From the NCBI RefSeq assembly GCF_026914305.1, contig NZ_CP113866.1:876183-940182 (forward strand): a DNA stretch of 64,000 nt. Direction: 5' to 3'. Both the position numbers and the translations under genes were made by a program. Below the pieces are notes generated by a model. It did no database searches, was not told the DNA's origin, and was given only the letters and a program-made list of their open reading frames with translations. Source of the DNA: Caldicellulosiruptor acetigenus. GTDB lineage: Bacteria > Bacillota > Thermoanaerobacteria > Caldicellulosiruptorales > Caldicellulosiruptoraceae. Below are positions 26,508-56,387 of this stretch, piece by piece; positions within the stretch are counted from its first letter, which is position 1, and the number at the start of each line of letters is the position of its first letter.

Positions 26508-26527
26508 AATAACATCAAAATAATAAA

Positions 26528-26674
26528 TCACAAAGGCTGAATGTCTGAGCAAATTGTAAAAATTGCTCAGGCAGCGGGAGACCCACAGTAGCCTTTGGGG
26601 TGAATCGGCAAGAAAAAACTTGCCGTAGGGATAGCCTTCTTGTCCCGAACCCGTCAGCTAATCCCGTAAGCCTC
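26528..26674 (+). promoter_or_regulatory. ydaO/yuaA-type c-di-AMP riboswitch
   Basis: The stretch carries the conserved blocks of the ydaO aptamer: AGGCTGAATG, then GCAGCGGGAGACCCA, GGGGTGAATC, GTAGGGATAG and CCGAACCCGTCAGCTAA. This class binds c-di-AMP and usually shuts off wall-hydrolase and potassium genes. The downstream gene is a wall hydrolase, the textbook target. The expression platform is the 15-20 bases between the aptamer end and the start codon, which include the ribosome site GAAGGGAG. Translational control is therefore possible; I saw no separate terminator. Confidence 0.93.
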
Positions 26675-26691
26675 AAGAAGGGAGTTTTTGC

Positions 26692-48941: not shown

Positions 48942-48991
48942 AATAAAGAGGCTAACTTTGCAGAGTGTAAAGTTAGCCTCTTACTTTATTT
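48942..48991. terminator. Bidirectional terminator between VWA gene and cyclase gene
   Basis: GAGGCTAACTTT (48948-48959) and AAAGTTAGCCTC (48969-48980) form a 12-bp perfect stem with a nine-base loop and T-rich flanks on both strands. The stop codon of the cyclase gene lies inside the right arm. Confidence 0.87.
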
Positions 48992-51900
48992 AAAAGACAC
49001 ATAATCAAAAATTTTATAGAACATTCTTCATCTATTTTTTCAGCCCACAGGGAAGCTAATTTTATACTCTCTTCAAATTCTTTTTTATTTCCCAAAAGTA
49101 GATGGATATTTGCTATTTCGTAGTATATCTTTGCAAACTCTAAAAACGAAACTGTTTGACTTGCAAGCTTTTCACACATTTTAAGAGTTTCTAGTGCTTT
49201 ATTAAATTCTTTTTTATGTTTGAGTACCTGTGAATACATTCTAAATGTCTTGATACGGATTAGAAGATTTTTCAGCTGCTCTACCGTTTTCATTGCCTGT
49301 TCTATAGCCGTTGTAGCTTGCTCAATGTCATTTTGAAGAAGATGCAGCTTGGTTTTTGCTAAAAGATATTCCAGTTCAACCCTGTTTTCTTTGTTCTCTG
49401 ACAAGGCGTTTAAAGCCTCATTCAAAAATTCTTCTGCACCTGATAGATTAGATTTTTCAAGCATTGCTTTTGCCATTCCTATCAATGATAGAGCTTTTTC
49501 TGGTATGAAATTGAATTTATTTGCCAAATCAAAGCTCTGTGAAAAGAGATTATAACTTTCGATAATATTTCCTTTTTCAAGATATAATTCAGCAATATTT
49601 TGAAGAGTTATACACTCTTCGTATACCAATTTCCACTCATGTGCATATGAAAAAGCTTCAGAAAAATTTTCTAATGCCTTTTTTAAAAGACCTTTTTCAA
49701 AATAGATAATTCCAATGTTATTTAATAGAATCAACTGTAGGTGACGATTTGATAAAACCTTAGCAAGTTCAAAAGCACTGGTTAAAAATTTCAATGCCTC
49801 TGAAGGATTGCCATTTTCATAATTTAGGATGCCAAGGTTTGTCAGAATTTTGGCTTTCAAGAGCAAGTTTTTAGACTTGTTTGCATAATTTAGAGCTTTT
49901 TTAAGATAGAGAATAACCTTTTTGGTCTCAGAGGTAAAAGTGTAAAGTGAGTAAGAAACTATATTTAGAATTTGGGCTAAATCTTCAAAGTTATTGCTTT
50001 CTTTTAGTGCAGCCTCAAGCTGACTTACCAACATCAGAAGATCAGAACTTCCTGTATAGCTTTTATAAAGACATTGCAGATACAAGACTTTTGTTCTTGC
50101 AAAGTTACTTGGCAATAACTTTTTTTGGAGCTCATTTAAAATGACTTCAGCTTTTTTAAAGTTGTTTTGAAGGATAACACACTCGCATATCTCAGTTTCA
50201 AGTAAAAACTTTTCTTCATCTGTTTTGGCAAACTGGAAAAGTTTATTATAATGTTGTAAAGCCTTTTCATAGTTGCCAAAAGATTTTTCTAAAGCTGCCA
50301 GTTGCTCTAAAGAAGAAACAAAGAGAGAAAGGCAATCAGGGGAATTTTCGGCTTTAATCTCATCAAGCAATTTATAGAGCCATTCTACAGCAAACTTGCC
50401 AAGCTGCATCTTTTTATATTGCATTGCCAGCTCAAAAAGATAGTTTGCAGCTCTTAAAACTTCCCCTGCTTCTTTGAAATGGTAATATAGAGTTTCGTAG
50501 TAGATTGTCAAATCTTTCTGAGCAATCATTTTTTCAATTGTGGTAGCAATCTTCAGGTGGATCATTCTTTTGGTTTGCTGAGGAATAAAATCAAGGAGGA
50601 TTTTAACAATTTCTGGTTCGACAAATTCGTAAATTTTATCGGTGAAATTTGAGTTATAAACTGTATCAATGAGCCTTATTAAATTTAACTTTTGCACTTG
50701 GCTAAGCAGATAAGTATGTTCAATTTTAGGCTGAAGAATATTAAAAATAATCTTGCTGCTAAATCTGTAGCCATATACAGCTGCAATTTTTAAGTATTCT
50801 AATACTTCATCATCAATATTTGAAAGTTTGTCAAGTATAATGTTTCTTCTAATGCTTTCAATATTTTGCTGAGAAAGATTGATTTTAAAAATGCCGTTTG
50901 AAAGTGAAAAAAGTTTATTTGTATCTAACCATTTTAACGTTTCTATGAGATAGTCCAATTTTCCTTCAGAGATGTTCATAAGCAGGTGTAAAGATGACTC
51001 TTCAACCTCTTTTGCGTTGAATTGAATTTCCACAGCAGTTTTTATTTCTTCATTGGATAATTTTTGTATTTTAAAATGTAACCCTTTTGGAACCTTATGT
51101 ACTTCTGAGCTTGAGGAGAAGATAAAAAACGGCTTATTTTGTAGTTGTTTTGATAGAAAATCAAGGATAAAATTAAACGATTCTTTGTCTGCAAAATTTA
51201 TATTATCAATTATTACAACCGCAAATTCAGATTCAAAAATTTTTTTCAGGAAAGATGAAATAACCTCAAAAATTTTGAATTCAATATCTTCTTGGGTCAT
51301 ATAAGAGAGAAACTGCTTGAAATCTTCATTCAAATCTATTTGAAGTACAAGGGAAAGGTAATTGAAACATCTTTCGGCCATTTTATAGTCTTCTTTGAAA
51401 AGGTAATCTAAAAAAGATATAAGTCTGTTCTTCTTCAAAATTACAGAATCTTCAAAGTTGACGTTTAATATTTTTAGGATTAGCAGAGATAATAAGTAAA
51501 ATGGTTTTGAAAAATTATTGTTAGATAAACTTATAAAATAGTATCTCAGATTGCTCCTTTCTAACTTAGAGATTATGTTTTGAAAAATATATCGTTTTCC
51601 GCAGCCATCAGGACAAACAATTACCAAAAAATCTGAACTTCTATTAACTATACTATCTATAACATTAGTTGTATATTTAGCCGTTAATGTTTCTACAACT
51701 TTGTTGTAATCGACTTGTTTGGACGTATTTATAGGTATATAACACCTCACCATTTGTGATTTATTTTTGACATTCAATTCAATAGGGCCGATATACTCTA
51801 TATTCTCATATGTTTCTTTATATACGTTTTCGGAAACGTAAATAGTATCTGGGGGTGCTGCTGTTTGAAGACGCTGAGCTGTGTTTACAACATCACCCAT

Positions 51901-52455
51901 GACGGTATAATCTTTTTCAAAAAGTCCACCAATTTTACCCACTGCAACAAGTCCATAGTTTATTCCAATTGAAAGGGATAACTCAACGTTCTTTGTTTTT
52001 GAAAATTCTTTTGAGAGCTTTAGCATTTCCAGTGCACACAGAACGCTTCTCAGTGGAGCATCCATCTGGGCGCTTTTTAGCCCAAAAAGGATAAGTGCAC
52101 AATCACCTATAAATTTATCTACGATTCCATTTAAATTGTAAACTGGTTTTAGAATAAACTCAAAAAATTCATTTATCAACTTTTTGACCTCATCGGGCGA
52201 TAATTTTTCAGAGAATTTTGTAAAGCCAGAAACGTCGGCAAACATCACAGCAACTTTCTTGAGTTCTTCCGTTCTAAAATATTCTCTTGATTTTGTGATG
52301 TAGCTGCCACAATTAGGGCAAAAATTTGCAAAAGAAGGTACAGGGAAAGTGCAATTTTGACAAAACTTATCAAATTTGATACCACATACAACACACTTTT
52401 GTGCAAGCTTTTCTTGCAACTTACTTCCGCAATTGAAGCAGAACAATCTCACCAC
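48973..52455 (-). CDS. Zinc-ribbon, class III nucleotidyl cyclase, ATPase and TPR protein
   Basis: 1160 residues, start GTG 52455. Two zinc ribbons (CFNCG..CVVCG and CQNC..CPNCG) fill residues 6-50. The cyclase domain (about 65-240) has metal ligands Asp74 (FADVSGFT) and Asp118 (KFIGDCA), substrate Lys114, and Thr184, Asn191 and Arg195 in YTVMGDVVNTAQR. Thr in place of Asp at 184 is typical of class IIIb adenylyl cyclases. An STAND/AAA-like ATPase follows, but its P-loop is CPDGCGKR and so looks degenerate. The C-terminal half is TPR repeats (about 680-1150). No membrane segment. Probably cAMP-forming; the regulator is unknown. Confidence 0.88.
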   Translation of the reverse strand: MVRLFCFNCGSKLQEKLAQKCVVCGIKFDKFCQNCTFPVPSFANFCPNCGSYITKSREYFRTEELKKVAVMFADVSGFTKFSEKLSPDEVKKLINEFFEFILKPVYNLNGIVDKFIGDCALILFGLKSAQMDAPLRSVLCALEMLKLSKEFSKTKNVELSLSIGINYGLVAVGKIGGLFEKDYTVMGDVVNTAQRLQTAAPPDTIYVSENVYKETYENIEYIGPIELNVKNKSQMVRCYIPINTSKQVDYNKVVETLTAKYTTNVIDSIVNRSSDFLVIVCPDGCGKRYIFQNIISKLERSNLRYYFISLSNNNFSKPFYLLSLLILKILNVNFEDSVILKKNRLISFLDYLFKEDYKMAERCFNYLSLVLQIDLNEDFKQFLSYMTQEDIEFKIFEVISSFLKKIFESEFAVVIIDNINFADKESFNFILDFLSKQLQNKPFFIFSSSSEVHKVPKGLHFKIQKLSNEEIKTAVEIQFNAKEVEESSLHLLMNISEGKLDYLIETLKWLDTNKLFSLSNGIFKINLSQQNIESIRRNIILDKLSNIDDEVLEYLKIAAVYGYRFSSKIIFNILQPKIEHTYLLSQVQKLNLIRLIDTVYNSNFTDKIYEFVEPEIVKILLDFIPQQTKRMIHLKIATTIEKMIAQKDLTIYYETLYYHFKEAGEVLRAANYLFELAMQYKKMQLGKFAVEWLYKLLDEIKAENSPDCLSLFVSSLEQLAALEKSFGNYEKALQHYNKLFQFAKTDEEKFLLETEICECVILQNNFKKAEVILNELQKKLLPSNFARTKVLYLQCLYKSYTGSSDLLMLVSQLEAALKESNNFEDLAQILNIVSYSLYTFTSETKKVILYLKKALNYANKSKNLLLKAKILTNLGILNYENGNPSEALKFLTSAFELAKVLSNRHLQLILLNNIGIIYFEKGLLKKALENFSEAFSYAHEWKLVYEECITLQNIAELYLEKGNIIESYNLFSQSFDLANKFNFIPEKALSLIGMAKAMLEKSNLSGAEEFLNEALNALSENKENRVELEYLLAKTKLHLLQNDIEQATTAIEQAMKTVEQLKNLLIRIKTFRMYSQVLKHKKEFNKALETLKMCEKLASQTVSFLEFAKIYYEIANIHLLLGNKKEFEESIKLASLWAEKIDEECSIKFLIMCLLNKVRG

Positions 52456-52570
52456 ACCTTTTTATTCCATAAATAGAAATAAAAAATATTGCAAAAAAAG
52501 AAATAGTGTGAGATAATTTTACTGAAAACACTTATTATCAATTATATCAAAATCAAAAGAATAAAAACAG

Positions 52571-52677
52571 TAGCATATGTCGACAAAGGCAAACCTGTCG
52601 AAAGGCAGGGGCGCAAAGCCATGGGCCTGTCGGAAGCAAATCTTCCTATGGTCGCCAGGCTGCCGAAGCATATGCTA
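52571..52677 (+). promoter_or_regulatory. Cyclic di-GMP-I (GEMM-I) riboswitch aptamer
   Basis: The GEMM-I signature is plain: AAAGGCAAACCTGTCGAAAG (GNRA tetraloop in a CCTG/CAGG stem), then GGGCGCAAAGCCATGGGCC with the conserved CGCAAAGCC block, the P3 arm, and CGCCAGGCTGCCGAAG. The closing P1 stem is a perfect nine-bp pair, TAGCATATG (52571-52579) with CATATGCTA (52669-52677). It binds c-di-GMP. A terminator follows at 52699. Confidence 0.95.
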
Positions 52678-52698
52678 AAGATGTGTTATCTTTGGCAT

Positions 52699-52736
52699 AA
52701 AGGCACCTGGCAAGAACAGGTGCCTTTAAGTTTTTA
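52699..52736 (+). terminator. Riboswitch-controlled terminator
   Basis: AAAGGCACCTG (52699-52709) and CAGGTGCCTTT (52717-52727) form an 11-bp stem with a seven-base loop, followed by AAGTTTTTA. Its left arm (52702-52711) can instead pair with 52654-52664 of the aptamer (ten pairs, one bulged C), so it is the likely expression platform. Confidence 0.85.
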
Positions 52737-52799
52737 TAGGTTTTGTTTGCGGGCAGTATATATAGTGTATTAGCCCGAAAAAAAAGGAGGTGGAAAATT

Positions 52800-53219
52800 A
52801 TGAAGCCTCAGGGATTTAAGAAAATTGTCTTAATAGCTATTATAGTGTTGGTATTTTCGCTGATAACAACCTCTGTTGTACTGGCTGAGAACGAAAATCC
52901 TGTGCTGTTCAATGGTAGCTTTACAGTTACAAACGAAGGAGGAAAATTCCAGGTAGGTTTTGTTGAGATTGATTTTAAGAAAGATTCGCTACCTGATGGC
53001 ATAAACTCAATGACGTTCAATGCTCAAATCTATGCAGAAAACGGTGATGTATATATTGAATTTTCACCAGATGCTAAATTCAAAAAAGATGTTCATCTTA
53101 AATGTTTAGGATATGAAGGTTACATTTATGACAGGTCTGCGGGGATTAATATTTTTGTAAAGATTAAAAAACAGCAGTTAAAAACAGACCATTTTTCACG
53201 CTTTATTTGGGCAAGATAA
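52800..53219 (+). CDS. Small secreted protein under c-di-GMP riboswitch control
   Basis: 139 residues from ATG 52800, directly after a near-perfect AAAAGGAGGTGG site; an earlier ATG in frame (52743) would lie upstream of that site and is not used. A signal peptide (IVLIAIIVLVFSLITTSVVLAE) ends near residue 30. The mature part is beta-rich and acidic to neutral: FNGSFTVTNEGGKFQVGF, then FNAQIYAENGDVYIEFSPDA. It has no lipobox and no anchor. I do not recognise the family. Its only clue is the riboswitch, which suggests an envelope or surface role tied to lifestyle switching. Confidence 0.8.
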   Translation: MKPQGFKKIVLIAIIVLVFSLITTSVVLAENENPVLFNGSFTVTNEGGKFQVGFVEIDFKKDSLPDGINSMTFNAQIYAENGDVYIEFSPDAKFKKDVHLKCLGYEGYIYDRSAGINIFVKIKKQQLKTDHFSRFIWAR

Positions 53220-53261
53220 TCCCTCTATCCTCATAACCCCTCGAACTCCTAAAAATAAATT

Positions 53262-53300
53262 TTGCCCCTCTTATAGCTTTTAAGAGGGGCAACTTTTTTT
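53262..53300 (+). terminator. Terminator after the secreted-protein gene
   Basis: TTGCCCCTCTTA (53262-53273) and TAAGAGGGGCAA (53281-53292) form a 12-bp stem with a seven-base loop, then CTTTTTTTC. The stop codon of the convergent GGDEF gene is inside it. Confidence 0.87.
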
Positions 53301-54488
53301 CTTTTTTTTCTCTTTTTTCATTTTATACATATTTTCGTCCGCTATCTTTATTAAGTCTTCAGCCGTAAAATTTGATTCAGGGGAATATTCAGCAAATCCA
53401 TAACTTATCTCAATTTTATATGCATGTGAAGACGACATATTAAATTTGGTTATCTTATCTTGAATTCTTGAAAAAACAATATTTGCTTCTTTTAAAGTGG
53501 CTTTCGAGAGGACCACAACAAATTCATCTCCGCCGTATCTGAACGCAATGTCATAACTTCTTATACTTTCCTTTAAAATTTGTGAAAAATTTTTCAAAAG
53601 TTCATCGCCTGTCTGATGCCCGTATGTATCGTTTACCCATTTCAGGCCGTCAACGTCAACAAAACACACTACAAAATGTGATTCGTTCATTTTTGAAAGC
53701 TGAATTTGTTTTTCTAAGTAGACCATTCCTTCATTTCTTGTAAAAAGTCCTGTGAGGCTATCGAGGGTTGCAAATTTTTTGAATTCCTCCTGCTCAATAA
53801 GAATATCTTCACTTAGGTTGGCTATTACCTGCTTCATGGAGTTGAATAAGCTTATTAAAGCATAGCGCGTGTTTGCGATATTTTTTTCTATTCGCTGGTA
53901 AAGGTGAATTCTTTCAATTAAAAGTGATGCTTGGGATGCCAAAGACAGAACAATTTCTTCATCTTCATTAGTGTAATCGACAATGCTGTAGAGAATATTT
54001 TCTGGTGTAAGTTTTATTTCCTTACTCTTCTTTTTATTTACCACTTGAAGAACTCCGATGACATTTCCCTGATAGTCAATCATGGGAACAGCCATGACAT
54101 TTATTGTTGTATATCCTAATGTTTTGTCAAAAAGTTTAAACTGCTGCAAATGAGAGTTTTGAGAAGATTGTACATTGTTTATTGTAACAGGGATAGCATT
54201 TTTTGCAACAAACCCAACAATACTCTTTTCATCTAAAGGAATTTTATAGCCTATAAATTGAAAATCGACAGAGTAGTTTTTTGCAAATGTTATAACAAGG
54301 TATTTCTGGCCTTCAAATTCTTTTACAGTGTAAATAGTTCCACCATCACTGTTTGTAATATCAATGCTTTCATTTAATATCATCTCTAAGATTGAATCAA
54401 CATTCTTTTCACGCGAAATCGCAATGCCTATTTTGCTAAGTTTTCTAATTAGATTTTTAAGTTCTTGGGAAGCTGTACGCTCACTCAT
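53280..54488 (-). CDS. GAF-GGDEF diguanylate cyclase
   Basis: 402 residues. A GAF domain (about 25-195) precedes a helical linker and a GGDEF domain (about 238-395). The domain is complete: FVDVDGLKWVNDTYGHQTGD carries the metal and guanine contacts, RYGGDEFVVV holds GGDEF at 319-323, and the inhibitory-site motif RSYD sits at 310-313, exactly five residues before. It should make c-di-GMP and be feedback-inhibited. Cytoplasmic. Last gene of a three-gene operon with its inactive paralogue. Confidence 0.95.
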   Translation of the reverse strand: MSERTASQELKNLIRKLSKIGIAISREKNVDSILEMILNESIDITNSDGGTIYTVKEFEGQKYLVITFAKNYSVDFQFIGYKIPLDEKSIVGFVAKNAIPVTINNVQSSQNSHLQQFKLFDKTLGYTTINVMAVPMIDYQGNVIGVLQVVNKKKSKEIKLTPENILYSIVDYTNEDEEIVLSLASQASLLIERIHLYQRIEKNIANTRYALISLFNSMKQVIANLSEDILIEQEEFKKFATLDSLTGLFTRNEGMVYLEKQIQLSKMNESHFVVCFVDVDGLKWVNDTYGHQTGDELLKNFSQILKESIRSYDIAFRYGGDEFVVVLSKATLKEANIVFSRIQDKITKFNMSSSHAYKIEISYGFAEYSPESNFTAEDLIKIADENMYKMKKEKKKKKSCPS

Positions 54489-54504
54489 GGATTTGCTCCT
54501 TCTT

Positions 54505-55221
54505 TCAAATTTGTATTTGTTCTGGAATCCTGAAACCTAAACTTGAAGCAAGATTAAAGTTAAATTTTATATCAAGATGAATACAAAAAACATAACTTCT
54601 CTTTTCTGGTGGGATAAGCTGGGAAAGCTCTGCTAATGAAAGATGAGGGTGGTTTCCATTAAAGTTTTCAGAACATGTATCTTGATACAAAAAGTCAATT
54701 TCACCTTTTAAGAATTTGTCAAGTATTAGCTGATTTATGGTTTTTGAATCACCGCTGTAGAAAAAACGAGATTCTCCTGTTTCAATTAGATAGCCAAAAC
54801 AGGGAATTTCATGAACATGTGCCTGTTCTATAGATATTATCGTAAGCTTCTCTTTATATATAAAGATGTCATTCAATTTCACTAAATCATAAATATCTTT
54901 TTCCACGCCCATACTACTTAGCAGAGAAGAAATTAAAGACTCTTCTGGGAAAAAGACTTTAACTTTTTTGTTTAGCTCATAAAAACAGTAAAGAAGTAAA
55001 TGTCCTAAAGTTGCTACATGGTCTGAATGGGTGTGAGTGATAAGGACATTGATTGTTTTGTATCTTTCAAGTAACTTGAGTTTGTAAAGGTTTGAAAACA
55101 CACCTTCTCCACAGTCAATTAAAAATAGTTCTGTGTCAAATTCGAAATAAGCAGAAGTATTGTTAAAGTAGGGATTAAAGGCGCTTCCTATTCCTAAAAA
55201 CTTCAATACAGGTATTTTCAT
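54505..55221 (-). CDS. Metallo-beta-lactamase-fold hydrolase (RNase Z-like)
   Basis: 238 residues. LKFLGIGSAFNP opens like RNase Z/AtsA-type proteins; ITHTHSDHVATLGH is the metal motif, with later metal residues in SGDSKT and CIHLD. RNase Z's long exosite arm is absent, so tRNA processing is doubtful. The gene lies between two GAF-GGDEF genes and overlaps the upstream one by four bases. A phosphodiesterase-like role in the same pathway is a guess from context. Confidence 0.82.
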   Translation of the reverse strand: MKIPVLKFLGIGSAFNPYFNNTSAYFEFDTELFLIDCGEGVFSNLYKLKLLERYKTINVLITHTHSDHVATLGHLLLYCFYELNKKVKVFFPEESLISSLLSSMGVEKDIYDLVKLNDIFIYKEKLTIISIEQAHVHEIPCFGYLIETGESRFFYSGDSKTINQLILDKFLKGEIDFLYQDTCSENFNGNHPHLSLAELSQLIPPEKRSYVFCIHLDIKFNFNLASSLGFRIPEQIQI

Positions 55222-56387
55222 GTTATAATTTCACCTTCGCTTTCTTTAGCTATTTTTTGCAAATAATTGAGTATCTCTTCAATACTTTTTTCTTCGTCAG
55301 GTTTTAATTCATAAAAGCTCCAGTGAAATTTTAATGAGGAAGATGGCATATCGTTCAATCGCAATTTTTCAAAAACTTTTCGCTCTATTCTTTTGGCAAT
55401 CATGCGTGCTTTTATTATGTCAACATTGTGAAGAAAAATTACATATTCGTTTTCATTTACTTTCACAGGTATATCATAAAGTCTTATTTCTGTTGAAATT
55501 ATCTCATGCAGAACATCTGTAGCCTTTATATCCCCATTTTTTGTTATCAAATATGCTATGCTCATAATTGTTTCGGTGATTTTGGAAAGTTCATATTGTT
55601 TTTTAAAAAGTTCTATTCCTTCTTTAAGAGCAAGAAGCTTTTCTTTCTTTTCGGCTTGTAAAGACTCTATGAATTTTTGCTGACCGCTCACTAAAATATC
55701 ATTTAAAACTGAGATAGACTTTTTTACAGAGTCAAACATATTAGCCAGCATCTTTTGCGTATTGGTAACAGCTGTTTCAATTTTCTCATAAGTTTTAGCT
55801 CTGTCAAGAAGAGTACCTACGAAAGAGGAAATTGCCAGTATGAGCTTTATATCTGTTTCAGTGTAGCTAATAGTAAAGAGTGCAGCATTATTTTCGTCTA
55901 ATTTTATATTTGGTTTTGCTTTCTTATTAATTACCTGCAACACTCCTAAGAGATTGTTACTAAAATCAAATATGGGAGCGGTTATGGTATTGATTGTAAT
56001 ATAATGTAAACTCTTGTCAAAGAATTTGAACTGTCTAAATTCGTGATTTTCAGGCAAATTTAAGGTATCGTTTATTACAACAGGTTTTTGATATACTGCG
56101 GCATATCCGCAAAGGCTAATTGGGGAAATAGGCAGGGAATATCCTAAATAGAATTCAAAGTTAACAGACAGATTTTTTGTAGCTCTTATAACAAGTTTTT
56201 CTTCTTGGTCTATCGTTTCCTTTAGATAAATTGTTGCACCGTCGCTTCCAGTCAGTTCTATGCAGGCATCAATGCTCATAAGAAGTATTTCATTTATATC
56301 TTTTTCAGAAGAGGTAGTAACGATAAAACTACTAAAACGTTCAATTGTATTTTTAAGCTTTGTAATCTGTTCATATACCTCAAGCAT
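55218..56387 (-). CDS. GAF protein with degenerate GGDEF domain and intact I-site motif
   Basis: 389 residues, paralogous to the 402-residue GGDEF protein two genes on: both have GAF domains with FKFFDKSLHYITINTITAP or FKLFDKTLGYTTINVMAVP. In the C-terminal domain the GGDEF motif is NENEY (311-315) and the metal-binding FVDVDG stretch is replaced by SIAYLI. The I-site motif RLYD (302-305) is retained, five residues before. It should not make c-di-GMP but could bind it, so a receptor or regulator role is likely. First gene of the operon. Confidence 0.88.
   Translation of the reverse strand: MLEVYEQITKLKNTIERFSSFIVTTSSEKDINEILLMSIDACIELTGSDGATIYLKETIDQEEKLVIRATKNLSVNFEFYLGYSLPISPISLCGYAAVYQKPVVINDTLNLPENHEFRQFKFFDKSLHYITINTITAPIFDFSNNLLGVLQVINKKAKPNIKLDENNAALFTISYTETDIKLILAISSFVGTLLDRAKTYEKIETAVTNTQKMLANMFDSVKKSISVLNDILVSGQQKFIESLQAEKKEKLLALKEGIELFKKQYELSKITETIMSIAYLITKNGDIKATDVLHEIISTEIRLYDIPVKVNENEYVIFLHNVDIIKARMIAKRIERKVFEKLRLNDMPSSSLKFHWSFYELKPDEEKSIEEILNYLQKIAKESEGEIIT

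Follow-up and report, generated by a model that had tools for sequence, protein, structure and literature searches.

What does a structured leader RNA in a thermophilic bacterium recognize, and in which direction does it act on the gene downstream? This question is raised by an element in a 64,000-nucleotide stretch of the Caldicellulosiruptor acetigenus genome (the window; all coordinates are window positions). We conclude that the element is very probably a canonical c-di-GMP-I riboswitch that exerts transcriptional OFF control on a single gene for a small secreted protein.

Identity of the aptamer and its predicted ligand

A preliminary description of this DNA had assigned the element to the c-di-GMP-I class. 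We searched the entire 2.74-Mb genome with Rfam covariance models. The aptamer core was found at 52579-52668 on the (+) strand, and its score for RF01051 (81.3 bits; gathering threshold, 35) bore out the assignment, as did the pocket nucleotides G20, A47 and C92. RF03167 (c-di-GMP-I-GGC) also scored above its gathering threshold of 59 (73.7 bits, E = 1.4e-15). Each model had exactly one match in the genome, and both matches are this element. The bit score was higher for RF01051, and the label with the best E-value after clan competition was c-di-GMP-I-GGC. In the class I numbering (PMC3764141), the pocket comprises G20 in J1-2, A47-A49 in J2-3 and C92 in J3-1. G20, A47 and C92 correspond to 52588 (G), 52615 (A) and 52663 (C), and the ligand-contacting nucleotides of the RF01051 class are all present. 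P2 carries the GAAA tetraloop, and its receptor in P3 is CCUGUC opposite UAUGG, where the class form is CCUAAG opposite UAUGG. The receptor strands lie at 52622-52632 and 52646-52652. CCUGUC opposite UAUGG occurs genus-wide, in most of the copies compared (L001-L030); this variant is rare elsewhere in the phylum, and the sister genus keeps CUAAG.

Two other ligand assignments were weighed. The element might belong to the c-di-GMP-I-GGC variant class and sense another signal molecule: the RF03167 label survives clan competition by E-value, and the RF03167 cut-off is passed in 13/13 genomes of the order. However, the RF03167 consensus at positions 47-49 is CGC-G-AA, whereas both RF01051 and the window read CGC-A-AA. 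The conserved G47 of the RF03167 model is absent from the window, and for this reason the variant-ligand reading, which we consider very unlikely, was dropped. We take the "GGC" in the RF03167 name to mean G20/G47/C92; given this, the window aptamer would be a canonical c-di-GMP-I aptamer. The higher RF01051 score also speaks against the variant class, and near-identical related copies are divided between the two labels. This split fits a model artefact, of which the P3-side difference (CCUGUC versus CCUAAG) is a likely cause. The other assignment, that the element senses cGAMP as Geobacter GEMM-I variants do, seems extremely unlikely. It draws on the common scaffold and on the tolerance of Cd1 from Clostridioides difficile for substitutions at the G20 equivalent (PMC9262584). 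However, cGAMP has been tied to G20A (PMC6274999) and the window keeps G20; because a cGAMP-type GEMM-I aptamer needs A20 and 52588 is G, this candidate was also rejected. Six GGDEF proteins of the organism argue against cGAMP as well. The genome encodes 11 GGDEF proteins, of which four contain EAL-type sequence by inspection (L065, L069, L070 and L072). Six of the 11 match the active-site motif, and all six have Gly-Asp, the usual form. In cGAMP synthases, Ser or Thr is found instead. From the pocket and the GGDEF/EAL set of the genome, we infer that the ligand is c-di-GMP. Measurements of this nucleotide in cultures of Caldicellulosiruptor have been published (PMC9933333).

A cluster of nucleotide-signalling genes occupies the opposite strand at 48973-56387 (-). 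It encodes a class III cyclase that carries TPR repeats (48973-52455), a GAF-GGDEF protein that is the convergent neighbour of the controlled gene (53280-54488), a protein of the metallo-beta-lactamase fold, weakly similar to enzymes that degrade cyclic nucleotides (54505-55221), and a GAF protein with a degenerate GGDEF domain (55218-56387). The window also holds a c-di-AMP (ydaO) riboswitch at 26525-26687 (+), which scored 90.7 bits.

Architecture of the expression platform

Every string quoted in the preliminary description was found where it had been placed, and each helix consists of standard pairs throughout. All parts of the platform are on the (+) strand. The 5′ strand of P1 (52571-52579) forms nine standard pairs with the 3′ strand (52669-52677), and P1 covaries among relatives. 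Nucleotides 52673-52677 are common to P1 and an anti-P1 hairpin (52673-52697), in which TGCTAAAGAT at 52673-52682 pairs with ATCTTTGGCA at 52688-52697. This hairpin can be extended to 52671-52699 and shows covariation among 24 distinct copies. The 5′ strand of the antiterminator, GCCAGG-C-TGCC (GCCAGGCTGCC, 52654-52664), is made of the 3′ strand of P3 plus C92. It pairs, with one bulged C, with GGCACCTGGC at 52702-52711, which according to the pairing and folding analysis is also the left arm of the terminator. The presence of an intrinsic terminator was supported by the sequence and a terminator scan; its extent, however, had been described slightly short, as 52699-52727, and the actual hairpin spans 52698-52728 with 12 pairs. 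Downstream of it, AG is followed by TTTTT at 52731-52735, giving an interrupted U-tract (UUUAAGUUUUU). An intrinsic terminator with an antiterminator built on aptamer sequence is present, as in transcriptional OFF riboswitches. Upstream, a promoter-like site (TTGCAA-17-GATAAT with an extended -10 TG; 52489-52517, +) was recognized purely by consensus match; its hexamers are the same in L005 and L013.

To estimate the likelihood of such pairings by chance, we shuffled the 83 bases 3′ of P1 4000 times by dinucleotides. A terminator of any kind appeared in 19 of the 4000 shuffles. A left arm that paired with 52654-52664 at -15 kcal/mol (the cut-off) or below appeared in none (0/4000), and the real left arm reaches -19.2 kcal/mol. 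A chance origin of the pairings was ruled out by these shuffles.

Folding energies and the proposed switching mechanism

By constrained folding at 37 °C, the OFF state (P1, aptamer and terminator) had -67.1 kcal/mol and the ON state (anti-P1 hairpin and antiterminator) -67.9 kcal/mol. At 70 °C, the values were -26.0 and -28.7 kcal/mol, respectively. Thus, the competing pairing in the preliminary description withstood the folding check: it is comparable in stability to the OFF state, with a gap of at most 1 kcal/mol at 37 °C and at most 3 kcal/mol at 70 °C. We also folded the growing transcript. When its end lay at 52676-52697, the aptamer with P1 was about 2-4 kcal/mol from the whole ensemble. 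When the end was at 52712 and the right arm of the terminator was still unmade, the antiterminator led the aptamer by 13 kcal/mol at 37 °C and by 7 kcal/mol at 70 °C; the folding model omits tertiary contacts and understates aptamer stability. Because the two states differ so little in energy and the antiterminator is ahead before the right arm of the terminator is made, ligand-induced OFF is the best reading.

The following sequence of events is proposed. In the absence of c-di-GMP, the anti-P1 hairpin (52673-52697) would form in the nascent RNA and open P1, which would place 52702-52711 onto 52654-52664. The resulting antiterminator would capture C92 and the 3′ strand of P3, and RNA polymerase would read on to the gene at 52800. 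If c-di-GMP binds before about position 52705, the aptamer would retain 52654-52677. The left arm (52698-52711) would then be free, and the terminator would halt transcription. The direction of control, from ligand to termination, is suggested by this anatomy together with the precedent of Cd1.

Several observations count against the OFF-switch reading: the interrupted U-tract, the presence of the terminator in the ligand-free minimum free energy structure, the scant covariation of the antiterminator (see below) and the behaviour of a Bacillus element of this class. The full-length unconstrained ensemble had -71.1 kcal/mol, and the minimum free energy structure at 37 °C is a hybrid in which the anti-P1 hairpin and the terminator coexist. 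This hybrid implies that read-through without ligand is kinetic and that the ON state relies on co-transcriptional timing; some ligand-free termination is expected. The same hybrid could be taken as the mark of an attenuator, constitutive or vestigial, in which the two hairpins form together whatever the ligand does. There is a possible parallel in Bc1, a c-di-GMP-I element of Bacillus thuringiensis, which gave no c-di-GMP response in vivo and behaved as if locked OFF (PMC11218506). However, the strands that the antiterminator needs are exactly those that the ligand stabilizes, and both alternative helices are conserved genus-wide with covariation, which would not be expected of a vestige. We consider a vestigial attenuator highly unlikely and retain the ligand-responsive OFF switch.

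Conservation of the switch among relatives

Copies of the switch are present in 13/13 genomes of the order, with one to four per genome. The covariation analysis drew on 24 distinct copies in which a terminator could be identified, and its tests overstate independence because the copies are related. The anti-P1 helix had an energy of -9.2 kcal/mol with both strands from one copy (matched) and -5.3 kcal/mol with partners from other copies (mismatched; permutation p = 0.0002); shuffled partners gave -3.2 kcal/mol. The P1 helix behaved similarly (matched, -9.5 kcal/mol; mismatched, -6.3 kcal/mol). The antiterminator pairing was strong in nearly all copies (-20.3 kcal/mol versus -9.4 kcal/mol for shuffled partners), although it gains little support from covariation: the aptamer strand is near-invariant, so matched and mismatched values differ little. 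Relative to the window, compensatory changes were found at 52675-52695 (C-G to U-A in L007) and at 52681-52689 (A-U to G-C in L004). In two divergent copies, L022 and L024, the terminator scan detected no terminator, so not all paralogues share the platform. In L022, the Shine-Dalgarno region ACTCCATATAAGGAGG has a potential pairing partner, CTCCTTATATGGAGT, beside the aptamer; this copy may therefore act on translation.

The controlled gene

The predicted target of the switch, which the preliminary description did not name, is the gene at 52800-53219 (+), identified by its orthologues downstream of switch copies. It encodes a 139-aa protein with a signal-like N-terminus, most likely a small secreted protein. 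A Shine-Dalgarno sequence (AGGAGGTGG) lies at 52785-52793 (+). A further hairpin (CGGGC/GCCCG; 52750-52777, +) separates the terminator from the ribosome-binding site. When the leaders of orthologues in the genus were compared, most showed a hairpin of different sequence at the same place. The unit ends at a terminator-like hairpin (53262-53292, +), which the convergent GGDEF gene could also use.

An orthologue is present in 12/13 genomes of the order, each time just 3′ of a switch copy, and is interrupted by a stop codon in two of them (G007 and G008). The thirteenth genome (G005) has kept the switch and lacks the gene. The 139-aa protein had no noteworthy sequence match in Pfam, NCBIfam or the PDB and no match in a phage comparison, and comparison of a single-sequence structure model (pLDDT 68) with known folds yielded nothing meaningful. 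The sole match outside the order, in Lachnospiraceae (L087), is short and lies inside a GGDEF protein; it was set aside as probably unrelated.

A sister switch at the cellulase locus of relatives

In seven genomes (G001, G002, G003, G006, G008, G009 and G011), a sister copy of the switch lies about 530-610 nt 5′ of a GH9 cellulase gene. All seven encode GH48, and the genome of the window has none. Near the cellulase locus, another sister copy (L016, L017, L019, L021 and L025) precedes a gene whose product has a pilin-like hydrophobic N-terminus. This gene gave no Pfam match, and by eye a type IV pilus function might be assigned to it.

Downstream of the sister terminator there is a near-invariant block with CTATCCCCTAACCCCCTC, followed by a GC-rich hairpin with a weak U-tract (loci L018, L026, L027, L028, L029, L030 and L106). 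An 18-mer of this C-rich block occurs once per genome, with zero mismatches, in all seven genomes that have the sister copy; with up to two mismatches allowed, it is absent from the other six. The C-rich segment is predicted to be single-stranded in 7/7 genomes. The reverse complement of the last 11 bases of the 18-mer is GAGGGGGTTAG or GAGGAGGTTAG (GAGGRGGTTAG). This complement forms the Shine-Dalgarno region, 6-8 nt 5′ of the start codons, of genes (L119-L142) for GH9, GH5, GH10 and CBM-bearing secreted enzymes, which include multidomain cellulases and xylanases; the leaders are otherwise different. The sites in L123 and L138 were without a clear ATG start in the scan. Beyond the cellulase locus, each genome has at most one match, and the celA sites in G008 and G009 depart from the pattern (AAGGAGGTTAG). 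The predicted duplexes have energies of about -21 to -36 kcal/mol, compared with a mean of -12 kcal/mol for 48 control genes, although these energies carry no independent weight, because the targets were picked by the motif. In G007, where GH48 genes are present but this switch is not, the exact sites are missing and one gene has a near match.

On balance, we favour the proposal that the sister OFF switch controls a candidate C-rich small RNA (CUAUCCCCUAACCCCCUC), which would mask the Shine-Dalgarno sites (GAGGGGGUUAG) of several genes for multidomain cellulases and xylanases in the glucan degradation locus. In some genomes, celA has its own promoter-like sequence (TTGGCA-17-TATAAT) close to the start; therefore, the C-rich RNA is probably transcribed separately from celA. 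Alternatively, the C-rich segment may act in cis on celA. The GH48-free genome of the window is without this branch.

Discussion

The switching logic of the window element is that of the known Cd1 riboswitch from C. difficile (PMC9262584). In both, a class I aptamer couples ligand binding to termination (a direction that is deduced for the window element), and the antiterminator pairs with the pocket C and its neighbour and thereby unfolds the pocket (C87 in Cd1, C92 in the window). The differences are matters of detail: the nine-pair P1 of the window is undone by a separate, covarying anti-P1 hairpin, whereas a P1 helix was not detected in Cd1 (PMC9262584). The controlled gene also differs, and the lineage is thermophilic. 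Vc2 from Vibrio cholerae, as described in PMC9262584, shares the class I aptamer and the central role of P1 in switching, but is a translational OFF switch, whereas the window element has an intrinsic terminator. The c-di-GMP-I-GGC class (RF03167) shares the scaffold and differs from the window element at the conserved G47 of its model.

For annotation, this case shows that clan competition by E-value in Rfam can put the label of a variant class on a canonical aptamer. For the organism, the switch points to a dedicated, uncharacterized secreted target of c-di-GMP OFF control that is kept across an order of thermophiles. The glucan degradation locus has been reported without a dedicated regulator (PMC8579813), and a C-rich candidate small RNA aimed at cellulase genes looks to be unreported. 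If our proposal is true, high c-di-GMP would stop synthesis of the candidate small RNA and release cellulase translation, and the riboswitch with the C-rich RNA beside celA would be a specific regulator that links c-di-GMP to cellulose degradation.
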